Part shown: in pieces, positions 34,686 to 45,939 of the stretch | How the letters are laid out: every line of letters starts with the position of its first letter | Position numbering within the stretch: the stretch's first letter is position 1 | Assembly: GCA_025937835.1 (NCBI GenBank) | Contig: JAICQO010000049.1 | Span: 1-46,222, forward strand | DNA from: Polyangiaceae bacterium | GTDB lineage: Bacteria; Myxococcota_A; Polyangia; Polyangiales; Polyangiaceae | Direction: 5' to 3' | DNA: 46,222 nucleotides | Notes under the pieces: model-generated | What the model was told of the DNA's origin: nothing | The model's input: only the letters and a program-made list of their open reading frames with translations | The model's database searches: none | Translations under genes and position numbers: made by a program

Positions 34686-35049
34686 CCAAACCACCTCACC
34701 GAACTCGCCAGCGCTAACACCCAGCTCGATGCAATGCAAAACTCAGCCTGTGCATCGCGCGAAACACCGGCGCGAAAAGGCCTCGTAACTGAGGGTCGAG
34801 GCGCCTTGCTCCGAGCCAGCAAACGAAGATCGAGCCGCGTGACGACCCCCCGCACACGAGTAGTTATGAAGGGCGGTTGCTCTCGGCTGGAGCGCAAGCG
34901 AGCGCCAACGCCGCGTCTCAGCGGCGGAAACGTTTTCGGCGAACACGCTCGCCAGGCGCGAGCGAGCCGCGCGGCGAGAGCTGGATGTTCACTCTGTAGC
35001 ACTGCGAGCGCTTACAGAGAGGCGACATGGCTCCGCTCGGTCGGGACTA
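34686..35049. other. Intergenic region, with possible 7-codon leader ORF at 35027-35050
   Basis: No ordinary gene. It holds the promoter region of the Cys-rich lipoprotein (minus). Near its right end, AGAGAGG precedes a 7-codon frame (MAPLGRD, 35027-35050) whose TAA overlaps the next ATG by one base (TAATG). This could couple translation of the ribbon-helix-helix gene to a leader peptide. Confidence 0.35.
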
Positions 35050-35223
35050 ATGCTGCGCGTGCGAATGTCGGACGATGAGCGACGACAGCTCGAGTGGCTC
35101 GCTGACGAGGATGGTCTGACCGCATCCGATGCAGTGAGGCAGCTGGTCCGGCGCGCCTTCATGGAGCGCGCAACCGAGCTCGCTGAAGCCGTGAAACCGA
35201 AGCCGAAACCGAAACGCAAGTAA
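35050..35223 (+). CDS. Ribbon-helix-helix (CopG/Arc-like) DNA-binding protein
   Basis: 57 residues. MLRVRMSDDERRQLEWLADEDG gives the beta strand and first helix, LTASDAVRQLVRRAFMER the second helix, followed by a basic Lys/Pro tail (KPKPKPKRK). The LRVRMSDDE strand and the Gly-Leu-Thr-x-Ser turn are typical of MetJ/Arc-fold antitoxins and plasmid regulators. The ATG at 35050 keeps the N-terminal strand; the later internal Met6 would remove it. No toxin gene adjoins, so it may be a solitary regulator or the remnant of a mobile-element module, since the att-like repeat lies 168 bases downstream. Confidence 0.75.
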   Translation: MLRVRMSDDERRQLEWLADEDGLTASDAVRQLVRRAFMERATELAEAVKPKPKPKRK

Positions 35224-35256
35224 GGCCGAGCGGATGGCTTCCAGGTGAGCTTTCGA

Positions 35257-35374
35257 CCGCTCCCTGAGGAAACCTGGGAGCGGCACTCACCAGGCGTGAG
35301 CGCTCCGCTCGAGCTCTGGGCTCGATCTGCGGAGCGCCCACTGTCTCGTCGATCTCGTGGTCCCTGCGGACCAC
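35257..35374. repeat. Cluster of three perfect hairpins next to the element's left end
   Basis: Three inverted repeats in 118 bases. (1) 8-bp stem 35257-35264 with 35276-35283. (2) Compound stem 35300-35308 with 35329-35337 (9 bp), enclosing 35309-35314 with 35320-35325 (6 bp). (3) 7-bp stem 35357-35363 with 35368-35374, loop of four. None has a following T run. They end 17 bases before the direct repeat at 35391. Confidence 0.6.
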
Positions 35375-35390
35375 GGCGTCGTCAGTGTCG

Positions 35391-35424
35391 CGAGTTTTAG
35401 CGGGGCGGACGGGACTCGAACCCG
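35391..35424. repeat. Left attachment-site repeat (displaced tRNA-Asp 3' end)
   Basis: 34 bases identical to 41523-41556. They consist of the last 24 bases of tRNA-Asp (minus strand: part of the T arm plus acceptor 3' strand and discriminator) and 10 bases beyond it. No 5' part of the tRNA is present, as expected of the att site distal to the integrase. Confidence 0.85.
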
Positions 35425-35467
35425 AGAACGAAGCGACTTTGACGGGGAAAAGCAGGAGAAGGGTGCG

Positions 35468-35496
35468 GAGGACTCGGGTTCAATTCCCGGCGTCCC
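35468..35496 (+). other. tRNA T-arm/acceptor-like scar
   Basis: Contains a canonical T loop (TTCAATT) in a five-pair stem (TCGGG with CCCGG, one wobble) followed by CGTCCC, like the 3' end of a tRNA on the plus strand. No anticodon arm precedes it, so it is not a tRNA gene. It is most likely an attachment-site remnant from a different tRNA. Confidence 0.45.
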
Positions 35497-35536
35497 TGAG
35501 GGTAAGTCGGCGAACCTGCGTCAGCGATCGCTTGAG

Positions 35537-35671
35537 GTGAACGATTCGCCGAGCCCGCGGGCGGCGCTCGTTGCCTCGCTGATGGCCGCCATCTCCGCGG
35601 CGACGGCTGCGGGCGACCTCCACGCCGCTCAGGTCGCGCACGAAGCGCTGGGGCGCCCGCTGGCCGCCTGA
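35537..35671 (+). CDS. Small Ala-rich protein, 44 residues, hypothetical
   Basis: From GTG at 35537 the frame gives NDSPSPRAALVASLMAAI followed by SAATAAGDLHAAQVAHEALG and ends RPLAA. The AAGDLxAAxVAHEALGRxL phrase resembles small helical proteins I associate with mobile elements of high-GC bacteria, but I name no family. The frame is open upstream to 35357 across the att repeat, and that part is clearly tRNA-derived, not protein. TTGAGG before the GTG is a weak ribosome site placed too close. Low confidence. Confidence 0.4.
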   Translation: MNDSPSPRAALVASLMAAISAATAAGDLHAAQVAHEALGRPLAA

Positions 35672-36059
35672 GCCCGGTGTGTCGAGCATCGCCGACCTTG
35701 CCGAGGAGCGGCACAGGCGAGGGCGGTAGGCGCGCCGAGCTCGCCTGTCGTCCGAGTACTGCGACGAGCACCGTGCGCCGTCGCTTTGCCGCGGGCACAA
35801 CGGGCCGCGCAGCCACCTCGAGCGAGGTGACAGCGCGTCGCCCACGGCCGCGCTCGACGGCGTCGCCCGTCCCCGTCGGCTAGACGGCTGTCGTCCGCCG
35901 CGCGGGTTGCGACGTCGCTCCAAGCGGCGGGACGACGGTACGGGCCGCGCTCGGAGACCTCCCGCTCGGGCTTGCCGAGCCCCGCGGTGAGCCAGCTGTT
36001 TTCCGAGGGGAAGCGTTCGGCCGGCCGTGAGACCCCGGCTCGAGTTTCAGAATCAACGA
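35672..36059. other. Non-coding stretch inside the element
   Basis: About 390 bases with open frames on several strands, none with convincing composition or a ribosome site. It is GC-rich and Arg/Ala/Pro-biased in all frames, as expected of random high-GC sequence. Confidence 0.4.
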
Positions 36060-36131
36060 GCTGTTTCAAAATCCGGAGGCTGTTTCATTTTGGGTTCCAA
36101 ATTCTAAGAATTGGGGTATAGAACCCAGGCC
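36060..36131 (+). promoter_or_regulatory. AT-rich control region of the unknown/ImmA-IrrE gene pair
   Basis: Sharp AT-rich island. It has a direct repeat GCTGTTTCA at 36060-36068 and 36079-36087, an inverted repeat with 6-bp arms around one central base (AATTCT A AGAATT, 36100-36112), and a TATAGA -10 candidate at 36117-36122. The ATG at 36132 lies nine bases after the -10 and has no ribosome site, so the message may be leaderless. The repeats are natural operator candidates for the XRE-domain protein encoded in the same unit. Confidence 0.55.
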
Positions 36132-36827
36132 ATGCACCGTTACCCCTGGCAGGTTGCGCCGGCGCTCACCGAAGCGCGGCTTCGTCTCATCGCGGCCGTT
36201 TTTGACCGCGTTCGAAACGAGGTCGCCCAGTTGCACCAGCCGGAGAAGGGCGACGGCAACTGGGGGTTCGGTTGCCGATCCTACGAGCGCACGTGCTTCG
36301 CCTTCGAACGAATGGCCGAGGAGGAGCCCTACAAGGCGTGGATGACGGTCGTCCGTGGCGGCTTGGAGTGCACGCTTCGAGTCGAGAGCATCCCGATCAA
36401 ATTCTATCGCGGGGATCCCGCCGATCCCACACCGCGCGTACTCCGGGGTGCGGCGAACGCTGCGTTGCGTGACGTGCGTACGGGGCAAGCAAGCATGTTC
36501 GCAATGTTCGATAGCGGCCACGCGTCTGACGACGGGTTGTTCTGGCTCCTCGCGATCGATACCCACCCCGACCTCACCGTGTCGCGGGTTGTGATCTTTC
36601 AGGCTGACGAGTACGGGAGCGTGCACAACGAATGGGAGATTCCGCTCGATGAGAGCGTGCACGCGGTCGCCAACGTCACGCCGATCAGGCCCGAGGGGGT
36701 CGACCTACCTCCGCCGGTGGTGCAATCGCGGACGGATGAGATCTTGACGAAGGACGGAGATTCGGCGCAAGACGAGCCTTCAGAAAGCAAGGCGGTTGGC
36801 GATGGCCAAGGTGACGAAACCCCGTGA
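36132..36827 (+). CDS. Unknown protein overlapping an XRE/ImmA-IrrE gene
   Basis: 231 residues, no family recognised. N-terminal helix ALTEARLRLIAAVFDRVRNEVAQLH, then a globular part with WGFGCRSYERTCFAFERMA, KAWMTVVRGGLECTLRVE, PIKFYRGDPADPTPRVLRG, and FWLLAIDTHPDLTVSRVVIF, EYGSVHNEWEIPL. The last ~50 residues are acidic and disordered (TKDGDSAQDEPSES). No signal or membrane segment. An in-frame TTG at 36111 is possible but lies in the promoter region. It ends 26 bases inside the next gene. The pairing with an XRE/ImmA-IrrE protein, the AT-rich operator and the mobile location recall toxin-regulator or defence modules; which partner would be the effector is not shown. Confidence 0.75.
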   Translation: MHRYPWQVAPALTEARLRLIAAVFDRVRNEVAQLHQPEKGDGNWGFGCRSYERTCFAFERMAEEEPYKAWMTVVRGGLECTLRVESIPIKFYRGDPADPTPRVLRGAANAALRDVRTGQASMFAMFDSGHASDDGLFWLLAIDTHPDLTVSRVVIFQADEYGSVHNEWEIPLDESVHAVANVTPIRPEGVDLPPPVVQSRTDEILTKDGDSAQDEPSESKAVGDGQGDETP

Positions 36828-37938
36828 GCGTTTCTGCGGACCCCGACTTCGTCTGGCCCGCAGCTTCAACGGGCTGACGCGAGCGGACCTGGCTCGCGAG
36901 GCCTCTGTTACGCCGCAATACATCGGTCACTTTGAACATGGTCACCGACAGCCGACCCCGGTGCTGCTGGACGCCTTTGCGACGGTTTTGGGGTTCGAGC
37001 AGTCCTTTTTTTTCGGCGAGCCGCTCGAGGAGTTTCGCGACGAGGAGTGCCATTTCCGGCGCCGGACCACGACGCCAGTGTCGGTGAGAACCCGGGTTCT
37101 CGCACACGGTTCGCTTTTCGGCAGGCTCGTCACCTTTCTGGACGAGTCCGTGAAGATGCCACCAGAGAGGATCCCGAGCATCCCCTTCACATCGCCCGAG
37201 GCAATCGAGGAAGCCGCGCAGATTTGCAGGGTGGAGTGGGAACTCGGAACCGACGTCCCGATCAAGAACCTGGTTCGAGCCGTGGAGCGCGCCGGCATCG
37301 TCGTCACACGTTTCGCCGCGGAGACGCTGAAGGTCGACGCCTTTTCGCGGGCAGGCAAGCGCAGCGTGGTGGTGTTGAACGCTGACAAAGACTGCTACTC
37401 CCGTTCGCGGTTCGATTTGGCACACGAGTGCGCTCACCTCATCGGCCACGGCGGTCTCACCACAGGCGACCCAGAAACAGAGAAGCAAGCGGATCGATTC
37501 GCGGGAGCACTGCTTCTTCCAAGAGCCGGTTTCCTGCGCGAGTTCCCGAGGTCGCGAACGCTCGACTGGACTGCACTCTTCGCGCTGAAGCGGCGATGGG
37601 GAGTGAGTCTGTCGGCGATCGTACGACGCGGGTATGAGCTTCGGTTGCTGCCCGCGACGCTCTATCAGGCGGCGTACAAGCACATGGCCTATCGCGGTTG
37701 GCTACGGCACGAACCCGAAGAGCCGGCGCCCGAGGAACCTGAGTTGCTCGGAATTTGCTTCCAACAGGTCGCGAAGGACCAGGGCCTCCGAGAGACGGAT
37801 ATCGCTGAGATCCTTGGGTGGCCGTCGAGCACGCTCTCCAGGGTGGCTGGGATTTCTGTCGCCGAACCCGAATCAGGGCCGCCTCATCCAGGAACGGTTG
37901 TTTCGTTGGCCGCTGCGCGGATGAAGCGCGCCTTGTAG
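36802..37938 (+). CDS. XRE-HTH / ImmA-IrrE zinc metallopeptidase
   Basis: 378 residues. The N-terminal XRE helix-turn-helix spans about 14-65 (ARSFNGLTRADLAREASVTP, YIGHFEHGHRQPTPVLLDAF). After a linker comes the ImmA/IrrE domain (COG2856) with HECAH at 208-212 and the downstream EKQADRFAGALLLP that supplies the third metal ligand. The C-terminal ~90 residues include a second helical segment ending in TDIAEILGWPSSTLSRVAGI, which looks like another HTH. Such proteins cleave repressors or bind DNA to switch mobile elements and stress responses (ImmA of ICEBs1, IrrE/PprI of Deinococcus). AAGG lies nine bases before the ATG at 36802. It overlaps the preceding gene by 26 bases. Confidence 0.9.
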   Translation: MAKVTKPRERFCGPRLRLARSFNGLTRADLAREASVTPQYIGHFEHGHRQPTPVLLDAFATVLGFEQSFFFGEPLEEFRDEECHFRRRTTTPVSVRTRVLAHGSLFGRLVTFLDESVKMPPERIPSIPFTSPEAIEEAAQICRVEWELGTDVPIKNLVRAVERAGIVVTRFAAETLKVDAFSRAGKRSVVVLNADKDCYSRSRFDLAHECAHLIGHGGLTTGDPETEKQADRFAGALLLPRAGFLREFPRSRTLDWTALFALKRRWGVSLSAIVRRGYELRLLPATLYQAAYKHMAYRGWLRHEPEEPAPEEPELLGICFQQVAKDQGLRETDIAEILGWPSSTLSRVAGISVAEPESGPPHPGTVVSLAAARMKRAL

Positions 37939-40942: not shown

Positions 40943-41606
<664 letters not shown>

Positions 41607-43433: not shown

Positions 43434-43501
43434 CCAATCTACTAACGGGTCGAGGTCGCCGCGCGGCGCCGTCGAGCGCGGGCGGCGAGGAGCAGCGCGA
43501 G
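43434..43501. repeat. 68-bp direct repeat, copy 1
   Basis: Matches 44666-44733 at 66 of 68 positions. It covers the last ~20 codons of each MYXO-CTERM gene plus eight bases beyond the stop. Confidence 0.85.
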
Positions 43502-44653
43502 CGACCAGAGCGCGGCGATGTTGCTGGCGCGGGGCTTCGGTGCGCTCGTCAGCGCGCAGGCTTGCGAGGTGCGGTGTGGGTGGTCCGCGTCCGCGTCCGG
43601 AGTTGGAGCCGGAGTTGGCGCTGGAGTTGGAGTTGGAGCCGCGGAGGGAGGCGGATCTGCGGTAGGAACCGGATCCGTGGGCGCAGGCGCGGGGGGACAT
43701 GCGGATTCGGGATGGGTGCGACACCACCGCTCTCGATAGGCGTCGTCGGGTGGCAGGTCTTCGAGGCGACACTCTCCGATGCGGTCGGCATTTTGCGGAG
43801 GCCCCTCGGGTGCGCCGCAGGCCACTTCGGAATATTCGAGGTTCGTGCGCAGATCTCGGGCGATGACTCGAATGCAGTATTCCCTCGCTTCGTTCGTGAA
43901 GGAGACCTGCGCCGCTTCTTGCGGCGCGTACGGTGGACCCTGTACGAGGAAGCGTTCGGGTATCGCAGTGACGTGTCCTGCCAGAGCCGTCGCCTCGAGC
44001 GTGTACTTCCAGGCCACGGCGATCGGCAGCGGGGGCGCGGGCAGAGCGAGCGTGGCGTCGATGAATTCGCTGAGCTCCGCGCCGAACGTGCGAGGGGCCG
44101 AGGTCCCGCAGGTCAGCGATTGACCGTGATCGCGGAGCTCGCGGACCCAGTCCTGCAACTCGGGAGCGGGCAGGGCGAGCGAGGGGCTTGCATCGGTCAC
44201 GCTCAGCACTCGCGAAAGGACGGTGTCACCTGCGGCGCTCTTCAGCAGGATGCTGGCGCTCAGTTTATCCCCGGGAGATCGCTGCTCGTGGGCCGCCCAA
44301 CCGATCAACAGCTCGCGGTACTGAAAGGTTGCGTCCTGTTCATCGAGGATCTGGGTGGTGCCTTCGACCAAGTCGAGCCCTGCCCTCACTTCGATGAACA
44401 CACTGTCGAGCGGCGCCTCGGACGCTGCGCCCGCGGCGACCACGAGGAGGGAAAAGAAGGCGTCGAGGCCGACCGGCACGACCGCGTCCTCGTCCTGCGC
44501 CGTATGCACGCCGCTGACGCGTGCGGACAGTCCGCCGGACGAGCCGTAGGCGTCCGAGCTCTCGAACACGGCGAAGGAGACGAGGTACATCAGCGGGACC
44601 AGGGCCACCGCGCCGATCGCGAACAACCGATCTCTTCGAGACGTCCAAAGCAT
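43442..44653 (-). CDS. MYXO-CTERM surface protein, paralogue 1
   Basis: 403 residues. A membrane helix at the N-terminus (LFAIGAVALVPLMYLVSFAVFE) acts as signal anchor. The ectodomain contains GLDAFFSLLVVAAGAASEAP, LDSVFIEVR, AVAWKYTLEATA and a Cys-containing tail region (CRLEDLPPDDAYRERWCRTH). A Pro/Thr/Ala repeat stalk (PTPTPAPTPAPTPD) follows, then the sorting tail SQACALTSAP, hydrophobic helix and ARARRRRAATSTR. GGAG lies before the ATG at 44653; the longer frame upstream is read through the paralogue's 3' end. Function unknown. It is 20 bases downstream of the paralogous gene. Confidence 0.8.
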   Translation of the reverse strand: MLWTSRRDRLFAIGAVALVPLMYLVSFAVFESSDAYGSSGGLSARVSGVHTAQDEDAVVPVGLDAFFSLLVVAAGAASEAPLDSVFIEVRAGLDLVEGTTQILDEQDATFQYRELLIGWAAHEQRSPGDKLSASILLKSAAGDTVLSRVLSVTDASPSLALPAPELQDWVRELRDHGQSLTCGTSAPRTFGAELSEFIDATLALPAPPLPIAVAWKYTLEATALAGHVTAIPERFLVQGPPYAPQEAAQVSFTNEAREYCIRVIARDLRTNLEYSEVACGAPEGPPQNADRIGECRLEDLPPDDAYRERWCRTHPESACPPAPAPTDPVPTADPPPSAAPTPTPAPTPAPTPDADADHPHRTSQACALTSAPKPRASNIAALWSLALLLAARARRRRAATSTR

Positions 44654-44665
44654 CGGGCAACTCCG

Positions 44666-44733
44666 CCAATCTACTAATGGGTCGAGGTCGCGGCGCGGCG
44701 CCGTCGAGCGCGGGCGGCGAGGAGCAGCGCGAG
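44666..44733. repeat. 68-bp direct repeat, copy 2
   Basis: Second copy of the block at 43434-43501, two mismatches, at the 3' end of the upstream paralogue. Confidence 0.85.
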
Positions 44734-45939
44734 TGCCCAGGCCGCAGAGGTTGCACGTGTGCCGGGCGCGGGTGCGCCAGTGAGCGCGCAGGCTTGCGAG
44801 GTGCGGCTCTCCGATGCGGGCTCCGCGGGCGTGTTGCCGTTGCCGCCTGGGCTGCTTGCTGCGGGGTTGCTTGCGGAGCCGGCGGTGCTGACACGGCCGG
44901 CTGCTCCGGACGTCGGAAGGCCCGTACCGGGTCCGAGGATGGATTGGCATTCGGCCTGGGTGGTGTCGGGATGCGCGCGGCACCAGCGCTCCTGATACTC
45001 AGCGCCGGGTGGCAGATCCACGAAATGGCAGTTGCTGATTCCGTCGTCGAGCACGGGTGGGTCCGTGGGCGCTCCGCAGAGCTTGGTGGAGTACTCGAGA
45101 TCGGTGCGCAGGTCTCGCGCCTGGATTTGCAGGCAAGTCTCATCCTGCAGTTGGGTGGACGAGGACAAGAGCTTTTCGAGCGGCTCGGACGACGGGCCCT
45201 GGACGAAGAAGCGCTCAGGTCGCCAGTCTGCTGCGGCCCCTGCGGTGGGCTCGAGCGTGTACTTCCAGGCTACTGCGACGGACGGTGCGGGCGTGAGGGA
45301 GGCGAGCGTCACCTGAGCAAAGTCGCTGAGCTGGCTGCCGAAGGTGTAGGCGGTTCCGCAGGGGTTCGGTATCCCGCACGAGAGCTGCTCTCCTGCGTCA
45401 CGGCGCCCGTACGTCCAGTCCCGGAGCTCGAAGGCGGGCTCGGGCAACACGGCGTCTTCGTCGGTCACGAGCAGGGTTCCCGTCCAGGTTTGGCTGCTGA
45501 AAGAGGTCTTGAGGACGACCTTCGCGGTAAGTTCACCGGAAGCTTGTGGCTCAAAGGCTTCCCAGCCGAGCAATAGGTCGGCCAATTGTAGCTGGTCGTA
45601 TCGCTGGTCGTCGAGGACACGCAGCGTACCCGGCACGAGCTCGCCCGCCTGGTTCGTGACTTGAATCGACACGCTGTCGAGCGGTGATTCGACCGCGGAG
45701 CTTCGAGCCCGAGCGCGAAATGAAAAGAACGCGTCGGGGCCGACGCTGACGCGGTCCCCCATATACTCGACGAGGGTGACTCCGTCGGTGGGGACGTGTC
45801 CGCCCGTCCCGCTGAGCCCTCCGGTGCAGCTTTGAGCGTCCGAGGTCTCGAACACGAGCAACGAACCGCCGTAGCTCAGCGGAACGAGCACCGCCAAGCA
45901 CACCGGTAGCAGCCCGCCTCTGCGATACAACCAACGCAT
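44674..45939 (-). CDS. MYXO-CTERM surface protein, paralogue 2
   Basis: 421 residues with the same plan as the gene downstream: N-terminal hydrophobic segment (GGLLPVCLAVLVPLSYGGSL), shared blocks VGPDAFFSF, ESPLDSVSIQV, VAVAWKYTLEPTAG, RDLRTDLEYSTKLCGAP and DLPPGAEYQERWCRAHP, a Ser/Gly/Asn/Pro stalk, and the tail SQACALTGAPAP, helix, ARARRRRAATSTH. The MYXO-CTERM tail implies processing and surface anchoring. The tandem copies have diverged in the ectodomain but not in the tail, suggesting recombination at the 3' ends. Start ATG at 45939. Confidence 0.82.
   Translation of the reverse strand: MRWLYRRGGLLPVCLAVLVPLSYGGSLLVFETSDAQSCTGGLSGTGGHVPTDGVTLVEYMGDRVSVGPDAFFSFRARARSSAVESPLDSVSIQVTNQAGELVPGTLRVLDDQRYDQLQLADLLLGWEAFEPQASGELTAKVVLKTSFSSQTWTGTLLVTDEDAVLPEPAFELRDWTYGRRDAGEQLSCGIPNPCGTAYTFGSQLSDFAQVTLASLTPAPSVAVAWKYTLEPTAGAAADWRPERFFVQGPSSEPLEKLLSSSTQLQDETCLQIQARDLRTDLEYSTKLCGAPTDPPVLDDGISNCHFVDLPPGAEYQERWCRAHPDTTQAECQSILGPGTGLPTSGAAGRVSTAGSASNPAASSPGGNGNTPAEPASESRTSQACALTGAPAPGTRATSAAWALALLLAARARRRRAATSTH

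Follow-up and report, generated by a model that had tools for sequence, protein, structure and literature searches.

Three GC-rich hairpins lie in a row between a small ribbon-helix-helix (RHH) gene and a displaced fragment of a tRNA-Asp gene in the window, by which we mean the whole 46,222-nucleotide stretch of Polyangiaceae DNA analysed here. The array is real and unusually stable, and its minus strand folds better than its plus strand. The best-supported reading, to which we give about even odds, is that the array is the former 3' flank of tRNA-Asp, terminator-like but devoid of T tracts, which was stranded by the insertion of a 6.1-kb element. The observations behind this reading are the hairpins, the duplication of the att site, the place of the array in the empty site and the sense-strand folding of relatives at that same place.

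The perfect stems of the array measure 8, 9+6 and 8 bp and span 35257-35375. The original prediction had given stems of 8, 9+6 and 7 bp ending at the left att repeat; the first two lengths hold, the third is 8 bp rather than 7, and the array stops 15 nt short of the 34-bp repeat at 35391. Its placement of the array between the RHH gene, whose stop is at 35223, and that repeat was correct. Hairpin 1 starts 20 nt past this stop. The array has the GC-rich stem-loops of a canonical intrinsic terminator, but a T (U) tract directly behind the stems is absent, as had been predicted; the two terminator-like sites detected in 34700-36150 both fall away from the array. Coding sequence was considered and rejected, since neither the junction nor the minus-strand open reading frame 35374-35159 shows a coding-like phase. 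The features are collected in Table 1.

Table 1. Features of the hairpin junction and the adjoining element, with the loci of a second hairpin found outside the window
Feature	Position	Strand	Remarks
Small RHH gene, 57 aa	35050-35223	+	Converges on the hairpins; family occurs in tRNA-targeting elements
Hairpin 1	35244-35291	-	8-bp perfect core 35257-35264/35276-35283, loop 11
Hairpin 1, outer stem	35244-35249/35286-35291		Beyond the 8-bp core
Hairpin 2	35296-35341	-	13-bp stem with one G-U on the minus strand
Hairpin 2, perfect parts	35300-35308/35329-35337; 35309-35314/35320-35325		9 bp around 6 bp
Hairpin 3	35356-35375	-	35356-35363/35368-35375, perfect 8 bp, loop 4
Left att half-site	35391-35424	.	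Displaced tRNA-Asp 3' end + 9 bp
Tyrosine integrase, C-terminal half	40949-41485	+	N-terminal part missing
Right att half-site	41523-41556	.	Within regenerated tRNA-Asp 3' end
tRNA-Asp (gtc)	41532-41606	-	Regenerated by the element
Bulged-C hairpin (outside the window)	L045, L046, L048, L049, L051, L052, L057; places in L154-L177		Model R1

The predicted unusual density of hairpins was upheld. The interval 35225-35385 folded at -90.7 kcal/mol on the minus strand (z -5.58 against shuffles) and at -87.7 kcal/mol on the plus strand (z -3.79), and 0/200 shuffles were as low on either strand. When 140-nt segments were ranked with correction for dinucleotide composition, the target-aligned minus-strand segment came 4th of 35,028 and the best regular-grid segment at the array 8th, two segments having been added deliberately at the target. 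The best 100-nt z of the array was -6.7, and none of the 138 intergenic regions delimited by a crude gene caller (26 convergent, 41 divergent, 71 tandem) went below -4.39. This caller missed the RHH gene, and the target interval was entered manually. Clusters of three perfect stems of at least 8 bp within 125 nt, with loops of up to 30, occurred three times, the array included, in 625,807 bases of the own genome (the window plus 40 contig stretches), and one of the other two is a simple tandem repeat. With stems of at least 7 bp, 35 clusters were counted in the same bases; this looser pattern is common. Scaled from the sample, the whole genome might hold some thirty comparable hairpin clusters.

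The two att half-sites are identical at 34/34 bp and the second holds the 3' end of tRNA-Asp, which establishes the repeat at 35391 as a genuine att half-site. Because this repeat is the displaced tRNA-Asp 3' end, the 6.1-kb element does not include the hairpins. Inside the element, an intact integrase of the kind expected of an island was not found: the fragment, fused behind an unrelated ORF and beside tRNA-Asp, matches only residues 244-434 of a 447-residue query taken from the integrase frame of locus L073. The element thus looks decayed and, with the C-terminal half of its integrase alone retained, the island is probably fixed. When the flanks were rejoined to restore the empty site, hairpin 3 lay 24 nt behind tRNA-Asp on the sense strand of the tRNA, as a stable U-tract-free stem of the T-less terminator-like kind. 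The element sequence that now follows tRNA-Asp also folds (sense z -3.23). The element further carries a gene encoding a helix-turn-helix and an IrrE-like metallopeptidase (Peptidase_M78; 36796-37938). At 35403-35496 the displaced tRNA-Asp fragment and a second T-arm-like stretch (35473-35496) form a 24-nt inverted repeat (79%), and 35408-35495 gave a weak tmRNA-like match (17.5 bits against a gathering score of 47). To the right of tRNA-Val lies a tandem duplication (43434-44090 / 44666-45346), with 141 nt at 84% and 105 nt at 70% and a spacing of about 1.23-1.26 kb.

Before insertion, the order would have been tRNA-Asp on the minus strand, 24 nt, hairpins 3, 2 and 1, and then the RHH gene, which converges on them. 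Once transcribed, the row of GC-rich stems may have stopped or strongly paused RNA polymerase, or defined a 3' end, and the array would have kept the tRNA unit separate from the RHH gene. The 6.1-kb element would have integrated in the 3' end of the tRNA and rebuilt it with its own copy, an insertion that would leave the array at the far end of the element, 6 kb from the tRNA. We infer that the array was a flank of tRNA-Asp and not the leftover of an older element, although the presence of the RHH gene suggests that the flank itself may derive from one.

The 3' flanks of tRNA-Asp in relatives are consistent with this reading. tRNA-Asp was matched in 88/94 genomes, own included; 30 loci were examined, 29 of them from relatives, and 27 relatives had enough flank. 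Over the first 170 nt past the gene, the mean best z on the sense strand was -2.91, with 14/27 below -3; further on, the same relatives gave -0.96 (+300), -1.07 (+700) and -1.06 (+1100) (P 1.3e-8), all z-scores being computed against the background of the window's own genome. Sense folding was stronger than antisense in these flanks (P 0.002), and the empty site of the window has the same asymmetry (z -6.53 sense, -4.40 antisense). This strong sense-strand folding, the place of hairpin 3 in the empty site, the lack of coding-like phase at the junction and the several perfect hairpins of at least 7 bp at the corresponding place in three relatives (three in L032, two each in L018 and L033) argue for a stranded flank. 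Against it, the array has no T tract, yet a simple purpose-made detector found stems with an adjoining T tract behind tRNA-Asp in 11/27 relatives. Within 160 nt of tRNA-Asp, nine of the 27 have no perfect hairpin of at least 7 bp, and a further 15 have one. Nor is the flank itself conserved. The own genome also speaks against it. A control that began with 41 tRNA matches, of which 30 loci were examined and 25 tRNA genes scored, revealed 3' flanks that are mildly structured at most, with a mean of -1.47 compared with -0.91 at +400 (P 0.034) and no strand difference across the 25 (P 0.65). As none of the 25 reaches the strength of the array (lowest sense value -3.69), the array is atypical among the tRNA flanks of its own genome.

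No homologue of the array was found in the sets searched. DNA search of the own genome gave a self-match and no second copy; the single copy, together with a second-best structure match in that genome of 28.4 bits against 188.5, led us to reject a dispersed palindromic (REP-like) repeat. There was no Rfam 15 match in the array and no plasmid or phage DNA relative at E 0.1. A DNA search of 97 genomes hit 10 at E 0.001, own included; the other nine supplied 10 short matches of 41-44 bits, of which three (L007, L008 and L011) fall inside the hairpin interval. These lack the three hairpins and were taken as chance. The structure model of the array (R2), which consists of one sequence aligned to itself and so finds only near copies and would miss distant relatives, hit 6/106 family genomes at E 0.1, own included, with a best other score of 29.7 bits against 188.5 for self, and thus no homologue. 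Neither was there one in 38 chosen loci (best 18.3 bits).

Relatives of the RHH gene were found in 11/108 family genomes by single-sequence search and in 52/183 genomes of the order by profile search, own included in both counts. Around 13 such relatives, two of which (L049 and L072) are the same place, a tRNA gene was present in 8/13 stretches. Each of these tRNA genes lies downstream on the opposite strand, and in L073 the interval between RHH gene and tRNA contains a tyrosine integrase. These arrangements mark the RHH relatives as genes of tRNA-targeting elements. The RHH protein had a weak match to NikA-like proteins, below the cut-off (E 0.0072), and no relaxase was found among 10 proteins scanned. 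In the window, the RHH gene and the displaced tRNA fragment stand 176 nt apart, and no integrase intervenes. The same holds in L053 (1447-1886), where the RHH gene lies 163 nt from an opposite-strand tRNA-Lys, again with no integrase between, as in the empty site. This shared arrangement makes it plausible that an older element once sat at tRNA-Asp.

A compact hairpin of another kind was detected behind the RHH stop in seven of the first 13 RHH relatives. It runs in the order stem, C opposite A, short stem, bulged C, variable stem, loop and TGGCC, and lies just upstream of the next small gene. Model R1 was built from seven sequences, a prior alignment (A2) of 15 leader hairpins having been poor, and matched 24 places in 15/177 genomes of the order (E 0.05); seven of these had served to train the model, and an eighth has the same sequence as one of those seven. 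An RHH-like gene lies just upstream at 12/24 places, and one of the other 12 is on a contig too short to tell. Across a sample of the phylum, R1 matched 2/377 genomes (E 0.001), and at E 0.01 it missed seven of the 32 sources given to it, all seven having been picked by eye as hairpin carriers. In 24 distinct rows, 7/11 pairs changed on both sides, and the covariation score was 0.257, compared with 0.071 +/- 0.019 in shuffles (0/500 as high) and 0.039 or less when the alignment was slid; the alignment was fitted to R1, which biases these values towards the model. The match in L168 is probably spurious, lying within a protein gene that we take to be homoserine dehydrogenase; it was kept in alignment A5 and, with L129, left out of the folding test of the downstream 28 nt. 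In that test, which covered 23 leaders, the 28 nt that follow the motif and precede or span the next start codon folded better than mononucleotide shuffles (1/200 shuffled sets as low). Among 20 extended motif loci, one of which carries a by-eye motif, eight have tRNA genes downstream, each of them on the opposite strand, and four have a sequence matching the L073 integrase, one of these on the other strand. No Rfam match to the hairpin was found in seven motif-bearing loci at E up to 1, and the literature listings searched named nothing resembling it. We regard the bulged-C hairpin as a candidate new leader RNA. It may matter more than the array, as a covarying leader in tRNA-targeting elements of this bacterial order. 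R1 has no match in the window (best 15.7 bits, E 0.3, away from the array), and its best score in 35200-35700, 6.6 bits, is not a match.

The original prediction had offered a structured RNA, recombination-directionality sites or a folded single-strand DNA substrate. The first two are possible but found no support, and the third is likewise unsupported. The hairpins fall outside the att-delimited element, at a position occupied in relatives by strong tRNA-Asp 3'-flank hairpins. A version of the DNA-site idea keeps some weight through the plausible older element: the array would mark the end of an element that formerly occupied tRNA-Asp and would hold its arm or directionality-factor sites, with the RHH protein or a lost integrase binding the inverted repeats as double-stranded DNA. 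The association of the RHH family with tRNA genes in 8/13 stretches and the integrase-free spacing in L053 are in keeping with it. However, the window holds no third att copy (21-nt core, up to 3 mismatches), double-strand sites would not be expected to differ in folding energy between strands as the array does, and a repeated arm-type motif was not demonstrated, so that we consider this unlikely. We judge it quite unlikely that the array has no function and arose by chance or by mutational correction of palindromes in decaying non-coding DNA. The adjoining element is decayed, with half an integrase, no conservation was seen, and similar clusters occur elsewhere in the genome sample, one strict one being the simple tandem repeat; chance sits poorly, though, with three hairpins in a row at a position where strong hairpins, and the same bias towards one strand, recur in relatives.

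A separate minus-strand structured RNA, or single-stranded DNA in folded form, that does something other than end transcription would account for a stability above all 25 own-genome tRNA flanks and for a place behind an RHH gene, where relatives often have a different, covarying hairpin. We hold it to be very unlikely: the one-sequence model found no structural homologue in 106 family genomes, Rfam has none, and the array does not fit the bulged-C motif of the relatives. The specific form in which a dedicated minus-strand RNA or folded DNA, belonging to an earlier tRNA-Asp element, replaced the bulged-C leader hairpin, in this lineage, in the slot behind the RHH gene is highly improbable. If the array is instead a stranded tRNA-Asp flank, island insertion can strand the downstream stop signals of a tRNA, and unusual groups of hairpins at the edges of other islands may likewise represent displaced flanks instead of new RNAs.

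The array shares with the bulged-C leader hairpin a place shortly behind an RHH gene of the same family, and hairpin 1 starts at a similar distance behind the stop; the array differs in having no bulged C and no following small gene, and in failing the model. T-less hairpins are described as fairly common in GC-rich mycobacterial genomes, one of them having reduced reporter expression, and evidence for termination by them is there called contradictory (PMC5335608). For Streptomyces, structured 3' ends without U tracts are described as a class and likened to T-less hairpins or Rho-dependent ends (PMC8269248). We liken the array to these 'I-shaped' terminator-like hairpins by sequence and folding, and we infer that it ends transcription. 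The common ground is GC-rich, U-tract-free stems shortly behind a gene; here, in contrast, three stand in a row, fold far more strongly than the other intergenic regions of their own genome, and are now 6 kb from the tRNA (PMC5335608, PMC8269248). A regenerated tRNA and a displaced 3' fragment mark the ends of tRNA-gene islands (PMC4383910). The 6.1-kb element shares both features with these Islander-type islands, as well as a tyrosine integrase domain beside the tRNA, but its integrase is halved and the hairpins lie outside the island (PMC4383910).
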